Part shown: in pieces, positions 15,425 through 21,322 of the stretch
Layout: the number at the start of each line of letters is the position of its first letter
Position numbering within the stretch: the stretch's first letter is position 1
DNA from: Pseudobutyrivibrio sp. YE44
GTDB taxonomy: Bacteria; Bacillota; Clostridia; Lachnospirales; Lachnospiraceae
NCBI RefSeq assembly: GCF_900104335.1
Contig: NZ_FMXT01000001.1
Span: 682,001 to 746,000 of the forward strand
Length of the DNA: 64,000 nucleotides
Reading direction: 5' to 3'
Position numbers and translations under genes: made by a program
Notes under the pieces: generated by a model
What the model was told of the DNA's origin: nothing
Databases searched by the model: none
What the model saw: only the letters and a program-made list of their open reading frames with translations

Positions 15425-16285
15425 TTAGAATGGAACTACTGCACCATCATAAGTTTTTTCAATGTAAGACTTGATTTCATCAGACTTAAGTACCTCTACA
15501 AGAGCCTTGATTCCATCATTGTTTTCATTTCCTTCTGCAACAGCAATGATATTTACATATGTCTTTGCAGCCTCAGAATCAGCAGCCTCAAATGCGATAG
15601 CATCCTTTGCCACTGAGAAACCAGCCTCAAGTGCATAGTTACCATTTAATACTACAAATGCAACCTCTTCCTTAACACGAGCAACCTGTGCTGCCTCAAG
15701 CTCTTCAAACTTGATGTTGTGAGGATTTTCTGTAATATCATTTACAGTTGCTGTAAGGCCTGCACCATCCTTGAGAGTGAGTAAGCCATTGTCCTGAAGA
15801 AGAAGAAGTGCTCTAGCCTCGTTTGTTGTATCGTTAGGAACTGCAATAGTATCACCATCAGCGATATCATCAAGAGATGTCTTCTGACCTGGATAAATTC
15901 CAAATGGCTCATAGTGGATTCCACCAGCATCTACAAGATGTGTGCCCTGCTCCTCGTTAAAGCTATCAAGATATGGAACATGCTGGAAATAGTTTGCATC
16001 AAACTCCCCAGACTCTACTACAAGGTTTGGCTGAACATAATCGTCAAATACTGTAACCTGAAGGTCATAACCCTTATCTGCTAAGAGAGGCTTAGCCTGC
16101 TCTAAAATTTCTGCATGAGGTGTTGCTGAAGCTGCAACAGTAATTGGTGTAAGATCCTCAGATGATGCTGTTGTCTCCTCAGCATTTGAAGAATCTGTTG
16201 CTTCAGTATTAGAAGAGCCGCAACCAGTAAGTGCTGCAAGTGTAAGTGTTGTTCCAAGAATTGCTGCTAAAATTTTCTTTGTCAT
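15425..16285 (-). CDS. metQ: Methionine-binding lipoprotein MetQ
   Basis: NlpA/MetQ family solute-binding lipoprotein. The start is set at 16285 because the ribosome binding site AAGGAG lies nine bases upstream of that ATG; the frame is open further upstream but those starts have no site. The signal peptide ends in the lipobox LTGC (Cys22). The mature protein has the family pattern PHAEILEQAKPLLADKG, FDANYFQHVPYLDSF and KTYDGAVVPF at the C-terminus. Third gene of metN-metI-metQ. Binds L-methionine, possibly also D-methionine. Confidence 0.95.
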   Translation of the reverse strand: MTKKILAAILGTTLTLAALTGCGSSNTEATDSSNAEETTASSEDLTPITVAASATPHAEILEQAKPLLADKGYDLQVTVFDDYVQPNLVVESGEFDANYFQHVPYLDSFNEEQGTHLVDAGGIHYEPFGIYPGQKTSLDDIADGDTIAVPNDTTNEARALLLLQDNGLLTLKDGAGLTATVNDITENPHNIKFEELEAAQVARVKEEVAFVVLNGNYALEAGFSVAKDAIAFEAADSEAAKTYVNIIAVAEGNENNDGIKALVEVLKSDEIKSYIEKTYDGAVVPF

Positions 16286-16334: not shown

Positions 16335-17003
16335 TTATTTCTTTTTATGGTCAAGTGTTTTTGCTATTGCCATTCCACTGTTCTGGAAAATCTGGAACAA
16401 AACAATAAGTAAAACAACTGTGACAATCATTATATCTGTCTGATATCTGTAGTAACCGTAACGAACTGCTATATCTCCCAATCCGCCACCTCCAACGGTA
16501 CCAGCCATTGCTGAATAACCAAGCACTGTTCCAAGGGCGATTGTAGCGTTTGTAATAAGTGAAGTTCTTGCCTCTGGTAAAAGAACTCTAAATACAATTT
16601 GTGCATTTGAAGCCCCCATTGATTTGGCCGCTTCAACAACACCTGCATCCACTTCCTTCAAGGAAGCCTCTACCATTCTTGCAATGTATGGAGCTGCTGA
16701 AATTACAAGAGGAACTATTGTGGCTGTACTACCATATGATTTACCAACAACGAGTCGCGTGAGTGGTATTAATAAAATAAGTAAAATCAAAAATGGTACT
16801 GAACGAACCACATTAGAAACAGCGTCTAAAACTTTGTACAAAACTGGATTTGGTTTTAATCCATCTTTATCAGAAATTGTAAGTAATACTCCCATAGGAA
16901 GTCCCAAGAGATATCCTAAAAATGTGGAAGCAACACTCATATATATTGTCTGAAGTATTCCTTCTAAAATCATATTTGTAACTTGGCTATCCCACATAAT
17001 CAT
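16335..17003 (-). CDS. metI: Methionine ABC transporter permease MetI
   Basis: Membrane subunit of 222 residues with about five helices and the permease loop EAAKSMGASNAQIVFRVLLPEA (core EAAxxxGA). The ending GYYRYQTDIMIVTVVLL is typical of MetI. Its start overlaps the end of metN by 17 bases; an alternative ATG six bases further in would give the same protein minus two residues. Confidence 0.95.
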   Translation of the reverse strand: MIMWDSQVTNMILEGILQTIYMSVASTFLGYLLGLPMGVLLTISDKDGLKPNPVLYKVLDAVSNVVRSVPFLILLILLIPLTRLVVGKSYGSTATIVPLVISAAPYIARMVEASLKEVDAGVVEAAKSMGASNAQIVFRVLLPEARTSLITNATIALGTVLGYSAMAGTVGGGGLGDIAVRYGYYRYQTDIMIVTVVLLIVLFQIFQNSGMAIAKTLDHKKK

Positions 17004-17787
17004 CTACCTCAACTTTCTCAATTCTTTCAGCTTTTGAATGATGCTTTGGAAGCTGACTATCACCATCTATCCAAAAGTATTTGTCCTCAGGAAGTCCTAC
17101 CTCCCCAATCTTTCCGCTGGCTACTAGCTGTCCATCCTCAAGCACTGCAACCTTATTACAGATTGCTTTCACCACTGACATCTGATGAGTGATGATGACT
17201 ATTGTAATGCCATACTCTTTGTTAATCTGCTTTAACAAAGAAAGAATAGACGCTGTAGTCTGTGGATCAAGAGCTGATGTTGCCTCATCACAAAGAAGAA
17301 TCTTTGGATTTGTAGAAAGAGCTCTTGCAATTGCAACTCTTTGCTGCTGTCCACCTGAAAGCTGTGAAGGGTATGCCTTTGCCTTATCTTCTAGTCCTAC
17401 CTTTGCAAGTAATTCAAAAGCCTTTTTTCTAGCTACATTCTTCTTAACTCCCTGTAGTGTAAGTGGAAAGATAATGTTATCAATTACACTTTTTTGCTGA
17501 AGAAGATTGAAATGCTGGAAAATCATTGAAATATCCTGGCGCTCTTTTCTAAGCTCCTTGTCATTTAACTGACCAAGCTCCTTTCCCTCTACGATTACCT
17601 GACCACTTGTGGGTCTTTCAAGATAGTTCAAACATCGAATGAGAGTACTTTTGCCGGCACCAGACATTCCGATAATTCCATAGATATCTCCCTTTTCGAT
17701 GTTTAGGTTAATATCCTTTAAAGCTTCTACCTGATTGTCTTTTCCAACAAAGCTTTTACACAAATTTCTGATTTCTATTTCGTACAT
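16987..17787 (-). CDS. metN: Methionine ABC transporter ATPase MetN, short form
   Basis: ATPase of the methionine importer. Walker A GMSGAGKST (about 39-47), signature LSGGQQQR, Walker B ILLCDEATSALD and the H-loop IITHQMS are intact. At 266 residues it is shorter than the usual 330-350 of MetN because the C-terminal NIL (ACT-like) domain is missing. In E. coli that domain binds methionine and shuts the transporter, so feedback here would have to act elsewhere, for example through the leader region just upstream. First structural gene of the operon. Confidence 0.94.
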   Translation of the reverse strand: MYEIEIRNLCKSFVGKDNQVEALKDINLNIEKGDIYGIIGMSGAGKSTLIRCLNYLERPTSGQVIVEGKELGQLNDKELRKERQDISMIFQHFNLLQQKSVIDNIIFPLTLQGVKKNVARKKAFELLAKVGLEDKAKAYPSQLSGGQQQRVAIARALSTNPKILLCDEATSALDPQTTASILSLLKQINKEYGITIVIITHQMSVVKAICNKVAVLEDGQLVASGKIGEVGLPEDKYFWIDGDSQLPKHHSKAERIEKVEVDDYVG

Positions 17788-17820
17788 ACGAATTATTTCC
17801 TCTTTTCTGATTGAATTTTG

Positions 17821-17865
17821 GCAATAAAATAGCCATTGCCTAAGTTTTACTCCCAGGCAATGGCT
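17821..17865 (-). terminator. Attenuator-type terminator before metN
   Basis: Stem of 10 bp: 17856-17865 with 17831-17840, 15-base loop, then ATTTTATT on the - strand. It lies between the leader ORF stop (17882) and the metN start (17787), so it must be read through for the operon to be expressed. The loop and the inner three bases of the ascending arm (17850-17858) are perfectly complementary to 17937-17945 in the leader ORF, giving a competing structure. Confidence 0.75.
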
Positions 17866-17945
17866 TAATAATCAGTGCTAACTAATCATCATACGCAGGC
17901 GCAAGACAAAGAGCCATGCACCCATCAGCCTTAAACGCCTGGGAG
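17850..17945 (-). promoter_or_regulatory. Predicted antiterminator helix of the metNIQ leader
   Basis: Nine-base perfect complement: ctcccaggc at 17850-17858 (+ strand) and gcctgggag at 17937-17945. Seven of nine pairs are G-C. In the transcript the upstream strand lies inside codons 19-22 of the methionine-rich leader ORF and the downstream strand takes the loop plus three bases of the terminator stem, so helix and terminator exclude each other. A second, local pairing (17936-17941 with 17896-17901, six pairs) could hold the upstream strand when no ribosome is stalled. Structure is seen; the role is inferred. Confidence 0.65.
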
Positions 17946-18001
17946 AATAGCATTCGGAACATGCACATGTACATCATTGTCATATTCTTTATTTTCTTCA
18001 T
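17882..18001 (-). CDS. Methionine-rich leader peptide of metNIQ (39 aa)
   Basis: Small ORF starting ATG at 18001 with a strong ribosome binding site (AAGGAG, nine bases upstream) and ending TAG at 17882-17884. Methionine occupies positions 1, 7, 9, 10, 12, 14, 17 and 29: six of residues 7-17, start excluded, which is far above the usual 2-3 per cent. It sits between a consensus promoter and an attenuator-type terminator in front of the methionine importer. The simplest reading is a ribosome-mediated attenuation leader in which scarce charged tRNA-Met stalls ribosomes at codons 7-14 and lets the antiterminator form. The tail also holds Cys28 and Cys32 and ends AYDD, so a function for the peptide itself is not excluded. 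Confidence 0.8.
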   Translation of the reverse strand: MKKIKNMTMMYMCMFRMLFSQAFKADGCMALCLAPAYDD

Positions 18002-18064
18002 AATGTCTTGCTCCTTTCCTTGTAAGAAACTGTACAAATTTTCTTACACAATTAAGATGACTAT

Positions 18065-18093
18065 AATATAATCTTCTGAATACTCACTGTCAA
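18065..18093 (-). promoter_or_regulatory. metN: Promoter of the metNIQ leader transcript
   Basis: On the - strand, TTGACA (18093-18088), a 17-base spacer and TATATT (18070-18065). Transcription should begin near 18058, about 57 bases before the leader ORF and about 270 before metN. Confidence 0.8.
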
Positions 18094-18116
18094 TAAAAGA
18101 CACAGAATATACTTAT

Positions 18117-18163
18117 AGGTAAAAATTATAGCTTGTTATCAATTATATTGATAACAAGCTATA
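18117..18163 (-). terminator. Terminator after mnmA
   Basis: Perfect 16-bp inverted repeat 18127-18142 with 18148-18163, 5-base loop, and on the - strand AATTTTTACC after the stem. It separates mnmA from the metNIQ promoter. Confidence 0.8.
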
Positions 18164-18209
18164 TCTGCTTTACTTTATGCAATTACAGCCTTATATAAGG
18201 CTTTTTTGA

Positions 18210-19280
18210 CTATTTCAACTTGATAATTCCTCCACCAAGCACAACATCCCCGTCATAAAATACAGCTGACTGACCAGGTGTCACTGCTCTCTGTGGCTCG
18301 TCAAAAGTGATTTTCGCAGAACATGGCCCTGTCTTTTCCACCTTACAAGGCTGCTCCTTCATGCGATAGCGAATCTTTGCTTTGCAATTGAATGCGTCTG
18401 GCTGTGCCTCAGGATTAATCCAATTTATATTTTCAACATAAACATCCCTTGAAAACAAATCCTCATTTTTCCCAAGCACCACCTGATTCTTTTCAGTATC
18501 AAGCTTTACAACATATAAAGGGTAAGCGGCTGAGATTCCAAGACCCTTACGCTGCCCGATAGTATAGCATACAAGACCACGGTGACGACCAAGAACATTT
18601 CCTTCCATATCTACAAAATCACCAGGCTCATATTCCTTGCCTGTAAATCTCTTAAGAGCTGAAACATAGTCTCCATCAGGAACGAAACAAATATCCTGAC
18701 TATCAGGCTTGTTGGCATTTACGAATTCATGGGACTCAGCAATCTTTCTGATTTCATCCTTTGAATACTCTCCCAATGGAAAATCAGTATGTGCCAGCTC
18801 ATCCTGAGTCATGGAATAAAGCACGTAAGACTGATCCTTGCTTTCATCCTTTCCCTTGAGAAGCTGATACGCGCCATCTTCGCATTTACGAATTCTAGCA
18901 TAGTGACCAGTAACAACCTTATCACAGGAAAGCTCTCTAGCACGTCTATAAAGCTCGCAAAATTTCAAATGCTTATTACACTCTATACAAGGATTAGGTG
19001 TCATAGCATGCTCGTAGCAATCAATAAAATTATCAATAACCTTTTCCCTAAACTGCTCCTTGAAATTCCAGGTGTAATGGGGCATTCCAAGCTTTCTTGC
19101 CACATCCTTTGCATCCTGAACATCATCTAAAGAACAACAGGTGCTAGTATCAGATAGGTCTATATCTTCGTTTCCGTATAGCTTCATAGTGCAGCCTATA
19201 CATTCGTAATTCTTTTCTTTCATCAAAAGAGCGGCCACACTACTGTCCACGCCGCCGCTCATAGCTATCAGTGCCTTCAT
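18210..19280 (-). CDS. mnmA: tRNA 2-thiouridylase MnmA
   Basis: ATP-dependent thiolation of U34 in Lys, Glu and Gln tRNAs. PP-loop AMSGGVDSSV (about 6-15) at the N-terminus, the first catalytic cysteine in NPCIECNKHLKF and the second in DSQDICFV, then the C-terminal domain ending in AVFYDGDVVLGGGII. Length 356 is normal. It follows folC by 32 bases and probably shares its transcript. Confidence 0.96.
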   Translation of the reverse strand: MKALIAMSGGVDSSVAALLMKEKNYECIGCTMKLYGNEDIDLSDTSTCCSLDDVQDAKDVARKLGMPHYTWNFKEQFREKVIDNFIDCYEHAMTPNPCIECNKHLKFCELYRRARELSCDKVVTGHYARIRKCEDGAYQLLKGKDESKDQSYVLYSMTQDELAHTDFPLGEYSKDEIRKIAESHEFVNANKPDSQDICFVPDGDYVSALKRFTGKEYEPGDFVDMEGNVLGRHRGLVCYTIGQRKGLGISAAYPLYVVKLDTEKNQVVLGKNEDLFSRDVYVENINWINPEAQPDAFNCKAKIRYRMKEQPCKVEKTGPCSAKITFDEPQRAVTPGQSAVFYDGDVVLGGGIIKLK

Positions 19281-21196: not shown

Positions 21197-21214
21197 AAAA
21201 GCTCGTCCTATGTA

Positions 21215-21308
21215 GCAGCGGGATGCGACCATAAAACCGCGGTAATACCTTCGTCTAAGTGACAACTCCCTGTTCACCTAGCACTTAACGCTTTACAGTC
21301 TACTCTGC
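21215..21308 (-). promoter_or_regulatory. folT: Tetrahydrofolate riboswitch aptamer
   Basis: On the - strand the 94-base segment carries the THF riboswitch landmarks: GCAGAGUAGA at the 5' end, GCGUUAAGUG, a GACGAAGG-type internal segment, ACCGCGG, and GCAUCCCGCUGC closing the outer stem (GCAG with CUGC). It lies between a consensus promoter and folT, the classic target in Clostridia. Excess folate should stabilise the aptamer and shut folT-folC. Confidence 0.93.
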
Positions 21309-21322
21309 ATTTGTTTTTTTGC

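Follow-up and report, generated by a model that had tools for sequence, protein, structure and literature searches.

In Firmicutes, methionine genes are usually controlled through transcription termination by S-box RNAs (the SAM riboswitch, RF00162) and T-box RNAs. Leader-peptide attenuators are known from the trp, his, and leu operons of enterobacteria, and in Firmicutes such attenuation reportedly serves branched-chain amino acids. Histidine attenuators have been described in the Bacillus cereus group, Eubacteriales, and Erysipelotrichales (PMC9413887), and histidine leader peptides in bacilli (PMC2965389). In Actinobacteria, leader peptides with runs of Cys codons precede sulfur amino acid genes; these Cys codons lie near the stop codon, and the mycobacterial alignment is without conserved terminator hairpins (PMC1262725). 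Our search of the open-licence literature turned up no description of the family reported here, nor of any other attenuator with a Met or Cys leader from Clostridia.

We analyzed a 64,000-nucleotide stretch of DNA from Pseudobutyrivibrio sp. YE44, referred to here as the window. On its minus strand, the leader region of metN (18093-17787) is probably a ribosome-mediated transcription attenuator. Most of its parts had been proposed in an earlier note and were found as described there. A promoter-like site, TTGACA-17-TATATT (18065..18093), matches 11 of 12 consensus bases. The leader ORF, MKKIKNMTMMYMCMFRMLFSQAFKADGCMALCLAPAYDD, runs for 39 codons plus TAG (17882..18001) behind the Shine-Dalgarno sequence AGGAG, and both homologues and coding selection support it; in addition to Met at codons 7, 9, 10, 12, 14, and 17 it has Met29 and Cys at codons 13, 28, and 32, which the note left unmentioned. 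Codons 7-14 (17960..17983), with Met7, 9, 10, 12, and 14 and Cys13, make up the putative sensor, placed by the Cys/Met enrichment that the family shows just 5' of an R-M-L motif. The candidate antiterminator strand C, CTCCCAGGC (17937..17945), starts at the third position of codon 19, reaches codon 22, and is a perfect 9-base complement of strand E, GCCTGGGAG (17850..17858), which may serve as the partner of C or as part of the 5' arm and loop of an intrinsic terminator hairpin (17831..17865; 14 pairs, 7-nt loop). The T run that follows, ATTTTATTG, is indeed interrupted, a weak point the note had named. A further helix, P1, joins AGGAGCAAGACA (18004..18015), which holds the Shine-Dalgarno sequence of the leader ORF, to TGTCTTGCGCCT near the end of that ORF (17897..17908). 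Behind the leader lie metN, an ATPase gene (16987..17787), the permease gene metI (16335..17003), and metQ, encoding an NlpA lipoprotein (15425..16285), all on the minus strand; the gene in front of the leader matches tRNA_Me_trans domains in Pfam, and we take it to be mnmA. Elsewhere in the window, a tetrahydrofolate riboswitch (RF01831) scores 85.7 bits at 21214-21309, also on the minus strand. Within the window, the leader is only modestly unusual: when the ORF was dinucleotide-shuffled 5000 times, 56 shuffles also had a perfectly complementary 9-mer in ORF and terminator, and 5 of 240 ATG-started ORFs of 25-60 codons, the leader ORF included, have a Met content at least as high. The proof must therefore come from conservation.

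Like the enterobacterial trp, his, and leu attenuators and the histidine attenuators, the leader combines a short ORF containing codons for the regulated amino acid, a terminator, an overlapping antiterminator, and cognate genes downstream. It departs from them in that its family appears to read Cys as well as Met, that one recognizable RNA and peptide family is common to many different operons, that some 18 codons separate the antiterminator strand from the stop codon in the window, and that a helix joins the leader's own Shine-Dalgarno sequence to the ORF end. Unlike the Actinobacterial cysteine leaders, it has its Cys and Met codons mid-ORF before R-M-L and possesses both terminator and antiterminator (PMC1262725). 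With S-box and T-box RNAs it would share the control of methionine genes through transcription termination, and it matches neither: the earlier note saw no signature of either, and none appears in the Rfam search of 17700-18220 at E<=10, where no family reaches its cut-off in the leader. The S-box model has no match anywhere in the same genome. In 20 related loci Rfam finds nothing besides tRNAs, none of seven leader peptides has a match in NCBIfam, and four searched against Pfam gave one weak match, well below cut-off.

A search of 61 genomes found homologues of the 39-residue leader peptide. With a 12-row profile, 11 of the 29 same-genus genomes gave 16 matches in all at E below 1e-14; six more at E 0.008-0.09 look like chance. 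The metN-type leader (Met-rich ORF, CTCCCAGGC:GCCTGGGAG pairing, and terminator) is present in nine of the 29, that of the window included, and all nine keep the Met codons and the pairing; the peptide is identical in L170 (P. xylanivorans DSM 14809) and G022:C10. A paralogous leader type occurs in seven same-genus genomes, five of which have both types. The window's own genome has it as MRPYFNTEICCCMCMCESLYSQ... at G000:C16:828970-829086. In this type the leader is followed by a tRNA-like element and then by a small ORF, which in the same genome is a DUF2292 protein by an above-cut-off Pfam match, with an OscA-like NCBIfam match below cut-off. Behind the small ORF lies metK in all six loci with a contig long enough.

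The earlier note also held that MetN lacks its NIL domain and that transporter feedback may have moved to the leader. The first part stood: Pfam finds no NIL domain in the window's short MetN and finds one in a long MetN of the same genus, one of each having been searched. MetN orthologues at E<=1e-90 occur in 27 of the 29 genomes, 13 of them short (open frames of 262-307 codons) and 14 long (336-359). Nine of the 13 short-MetN genomes have the leader. The other four (G028, G003, G011, G024) have metN directly behind promoter-like sequence, so relatives lacking the Met codons, which the note would have counted against its proposal, do exist, the whole leader having been lost or never acquired. 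No such leader was seen upstream of the 10 of 14 long metN genes whose upstream regions were read, most of which appear, by eye, to come after metQ. Because four of 13 short-MetN genomes are without the leader, the link is weak, and we rejected a tie between NIL loss and the leader.

Beyond the genus, the profile and a covariance model built from 22 leaders brought up further leaders, with 59 matches at E<=0.01 in 46 of 397 Lachnospiraceae genomes; 51 of these matches were examined, and at least one (L133) is false. Across the class, 12 of 391 genomes had matches at E<=1e-4; they belong to five families, that of the window included, and all seven newly examined loci have a leader ORF. A DNA pattern scan of named genomes retrieved at least 118 stretches, mostly from metagenome bins, whose titles include Lachnospiraceae, Saccharofermentans, Ruminococcaceae, Oscillospiraceae, and Christensenella. 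A leader ORF is visible by eye in 79 of the 80 examined, in each case an in-frame ORF containing R-M. Pattern matches L178 and L210, both before metY, come from bins labelled Coriobacteriaceae and Eggerthellaceae, possibly through transfer or mis-binning.

For 142 leaders, a count that retains duplicates since several pattern loci repeat other loci, the nearest recognized gene within 1.5 kb was assigned by BLAST at E<=1e-8 to representatives, whose names other than MetN/I/Q we presume from recognition and recall. It was O-acetylhomoserine sulfhydrylase in 60, a cystine-type binding protein in 18, MetQ in 17, MetN in 11, MetK in 6, a YqjG-like protein in 5, CysK in 4, and a permease in 3; another seven have PLP enzymes (3), Rrf2, a cyclase, a glycyl radical enzyme, or LysR, and 11 have no recognized gene in range, partly because contigs end. 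MetY, MetN, MetQ, MetK, CysK, a cystine-type binding protein, or a related PLP enzyme is nearest in 119 of the 142. In Clostridia of rumen and gut, closely similar putative switches are found in front of many genes for sulfur amino acids. S-box RNAs are found in 310 of the 397 Lachnospiraceae genomes. That the attenuator replaces the S-box was considered and rejected, the S-box being present in 33 of 46 genomes with the attenuator vs. 277 of 351 others (Fisher p 0.26).

The predicted antiterminator C:E, terminator E:F, and Shine-Dalgarno-sequestering P1 covary. In 124 leaders, own partners fit better than swapped ones for each of the three helices (0 of 2000 permutations each); E strands were picked by complementarity to C, which favors own pairs, and related sequences are not independent. 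Pair 6 of C:E is G-C in 99 of the 124 and A-T in 24, and A-T or T-A replacements are also present at pairs 7-9; in the 80 pattern loci this pair is concordant in 79, G-C in 73 and A-T in 6, its lone mismatch being the false locus L202. P1 is formed at 0.76 vs. 0.44 with shuffled 3' ends (p 5e-14), and a compensatory example is GCAAGAC:GTCTTGC in the window against GTACGAC:GTCGTAC in L060. The 3' arm of the terminator resembles C in many relatives, so both would compete for E directly.

Another helix, hairpin 2, in which the R-M-L codons and C pair with the downstream ORF, was rejected as a universal blocker of C: it sequesters C at 0.45 vs. 0.48 in shuffles, not above chance, and its own score is reached in 429 of 2000 partner permutations. 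It is real only in a subset of leaders. Its base, GC[AG]TTCG, occurs in 23 of 122 leaders (1.4% expected), 21 of them at the same place, including 16 of 55 metY leaders and none of 10 metN leaders. In the same analysis the whole segment gives stronger folding than shuffled versions do (p 6e-8), and downstream pairing of CGAATGC is 0.43 vs. 0.36 (p 0.04).

As judged by sequence comparison, which supports its parts, its homology, the position of the sensor, and the covariation of P1, C:E, and E:F, the leader has these features of an attenuator: an ORF with a ribosome-binding site and under selection for coding, clustered sensor codons, and a terminator with a mutually exclusive antiterminator. 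That the ribosome stalls, why it does so, and in which direction the operon responds we infer as follows. Translation of the leader ORF would begin behind RNA polymerase. When charged tRNA-Met (and tRNA-Cys) is scarce, the ribosome would stall on codons 7-14, and its coverage of the RNA would end at roughly the R-M-L codons; if the last sensor codon occupies the A site, a ribosome of known footprint size should cover some 12 nt further, which is R-M-L by the spacing in the profile of 128 leaders. In this model strand C (17937-17945) would stay free and pair with E (17850-17858) as the latter emerges, and since the terminator E:F cannot form once C:E has formed, metNIQ would be transcribed. When charged tRNA is plentiful the ribosome would not wait, the terminator would form, and transcription would end before metN. 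P1 probably blocks re-translation of the finished leader; as it encloses C, it may also hinder C:E once no ribosome lies between its strands. The least certain step is how C would be kept from E in fed cells, whether by a ribosome in the C-E loop, by P1, or by ribosome transit over C. The functions of the genes make the reverse response, scarcity giving termination, unlikely; scarcity would give readthrough. If this is right, rumen and gut bacteria have one more means of regulating sulfur amino acids in addition to S-box and T-box RNAs, methionine and cysteine supply would be coupled through the ribosome, and the sequence model could find candidate regulated transporters and enzymes in unannotated genomes.

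Folding calculations bear on that least certain step. Before F has been made, mean C:E is 0.91 without a ribosome, 0.87 with a ribosome at the stop codon, 0.99 with a stalled ribosome, and 0.00 with a ribosome on C. Stalling raises C:E above the free state by more than 0.2 in just 11 of 124 leaders, and in the window leader C:E is 1.00 in the free, stop-codon, and stall states alike. The earlier note had pointed out that a ribosome at the stop codon does not itself cover the upstream strand, and this weakness stands, the antiterminator being unblocked in folding. In the full transcript, a simulated stall moves mean C:E from 0.56 to 0.83 and E:F from 0.35 to 0.12 over the 124 leaders. Seven leaders with a weak C:E match (E strand score below 7: L019, L035, L036, L110, L113, L135, L136), three of them metK-type, had been removed ahead of both the pre-F and the full-transcript counts, and dropping them favors the remainder. 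The shift in C:E/E:F for 10 metN leaders is from 0.22/0.55 to 0.73/0.19; the window leader itself has E:F winning in both states (0.98), and four metK-type leaders that were scored show no stall shift, with C:E at 0.00 in both states. P1 together with C:E makes a pseudoknot, which lies outside what nested folding handles. Unless a ribosome covers the antiterminator, equilibrium folding mostly favors it. With C:E winning before F exists and E:F winning in the full window transcript, the order of folding, a ribosome between C and E, and P1 must matter.

That only a ribosome on C abolishes C:E in these calculations speaks for arrest induced by the nascent peptide or its codons, whereby a fed ribosome would pause on R-M-L-x-S-[RQ]-A, cover C, and cause termination, while scarcity would move the pause upstream to the sensor. 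The arginine codon CGA in 122 of 128 leaders (its letters preset by the DNA pattern for the 80 loci) agrees with this; the third residue of R-M-L is Leu in 95 of 128. We nevertheless consider arrest unlikely, because strand C and neighboring nucleotide constraint explain the same residues, and we know of no arrest peptide with this sequence.

Sequence comparison places the leader ORF under coding selection. Across nine pairs of related leaders sharing no member, changes at the three codon positions number 38/29/58, and 30 of 59 single-change codons are synonymous vs. 0.214 expected (p 6e-7). Among 128 non-redundant leaders, the Cys+Met fraction at codons -1 to -4 before R is 0.82, 0.95, 0.85, and 0.55, and at codons -8 to -12 it is 0.02-0.05. 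The pattern preset the letters of R-M and C for the 80 named-genome loci and left the preceding codons free; 62 of these 80 have at least three Cys/Met among the six codons before R. Identical leaders were removed for the codon profile and for the Met:Cys, coding-selection, pre-F folding, and GC[AG]TTCG counts. Left out of counts were L202 (no leader), L133 (the false covariance match), L129 and L131 (leaders visible, anchor missed by the script), and L103 and L125 (ORF start missed); L034, with a different core, was left out of the codon profile and the GC[AG]TTCG count.

These results weigh heavily on a further alternative, a metabolite riboswitch for SAM, Met, Cys, or a sulfur compound that merely contains an ORF, with P1 as its closing stem. 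The strong conservation of P1 would suit it, as would that of CGA-ATG-C and CTCCC at the nucleotide level (preset by the search for the 80 loci) and the vacancy left by the S-box in this genome. It would not account for the excess of synonymous change, for the Cys and Met codons at a fixed place with exchange of TGT and TGC, or for the gain or loss of a whole Cys codon in the sensors of the close relatives L035 and L036 (CC vs. CCC), and apart from tRNAs it has no Rfam match in the window leader or the 20 related loci; we hold it to be very unlikely. An ordinary terminator beside a chance Met-rich ORF, with no regulation, is hardly credible: in the window alone the Met content and the 9-mer are events of about 1-2%, but family conservation, covariation, and the sulfur gene context contradict it.

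The earlier note proposed a methionine attenuator. The attenuator part gains from coding selection, from the sensor codons, and from a terminator and antiterminator kept with compensatory changes; its restriction to methionine needs amendment, since the family appears to read Cys at least as much as Met, with the window leader in a Met-biased branch. Over the ten codons before R, Met/(Met+Cys) is 0.71 in metN leaders (Met exceeding Cys in 9 of 10), 0.58 in YqjG-like (4 of 5), 0.45 in MetQ (3 of 16), 0.39 in metY (6 of 57), 0.38 in cystine binding protein (0 of 15), and 0.32 in metK-type leaders (0 of 5). The metN and cystine leaders differ at p 5e-6, where the nine Met-rich metN leaders belong to one genus and are not independent. 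L130, the sole metN leader outside the genus, has equal counts of Cys and Met by hand, and the Met bias has no counterpart in MetQ leaders of other genera. A broader proposal, possible though doubtful, is that one family has been copied across the whole sulfur amino acid regulon in Clostridia, reading the joint charging of Cys and Met tRNAs with a Met:Cys mix tuned to the gene behind, and that the tRNA-Cys-like RNA of the DUF2292/metK copies belongs to the same circuit, for example as a tRNA-Cys mimic or processing signal.

Twelve of the 29 same-genus genomes have the tRNA-Cys-like element, placed behind the attenuator terminator and in front of DUF2292/metK. The copy in the window's own genome is at L034:1369-1441 (G000:C16:828838-828910, minus strand), and relatives occur in L017, L019, L032, L033, L035, L036, and L285-L289. 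Among the copies scanned, ARAGORN calls the own copy alone tRNA-Cys(gca). It is not that genome's only tRNA-Cys, a role we considered and rejected, for an ordinary tRNA-Cys exists elsewhere. In an alignment of 12 of 13 copies (L059 left out), a 5-bp stem carries a 4-nt GGCA loop in 11 of 12, and compensatory changes occur in five pairs among the 9 distinct rows (0 of 500 shuffles). In five genomes (L285, L286, L287, L288, and L289), a leader ORF of another kind, rich in Cys and Met, stands before the element together with a different terminator; L285-L287 are nearly identical to one another, and the leader of L285, read by eye, is MRTTISTAMMNTCMCKACCQTSICCTCKTVC... This suggests that the attenuators at this site arose separately or have diverged far from each other. 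In another genus, L059:1674-1745 has the tRNA-like element behind an RML attenuator, before genes that look HD-domain- and Rrf2-like.

A sub-branch of leaders (L115, L147, L149, L195, L199, L211), three of the six assigned to metY, has the motif R[STE]NFRCGRM and few Met or Cys before R. Upstream of 72 of 122 leaders (0.4% in shuffles), for example those of L117, L104, and L034, there is a palindrome of the form CCTA-N7..10-TAGG, in most cases CCTATTGACATAGTAGG lying over the -35 box; it occurs with 1 of 10 metN leaders, and by eye the window leader is without it. The palindrome suggests the site of a second, DNA-level sulfur regulator, perhaps of the Rrf2 type.
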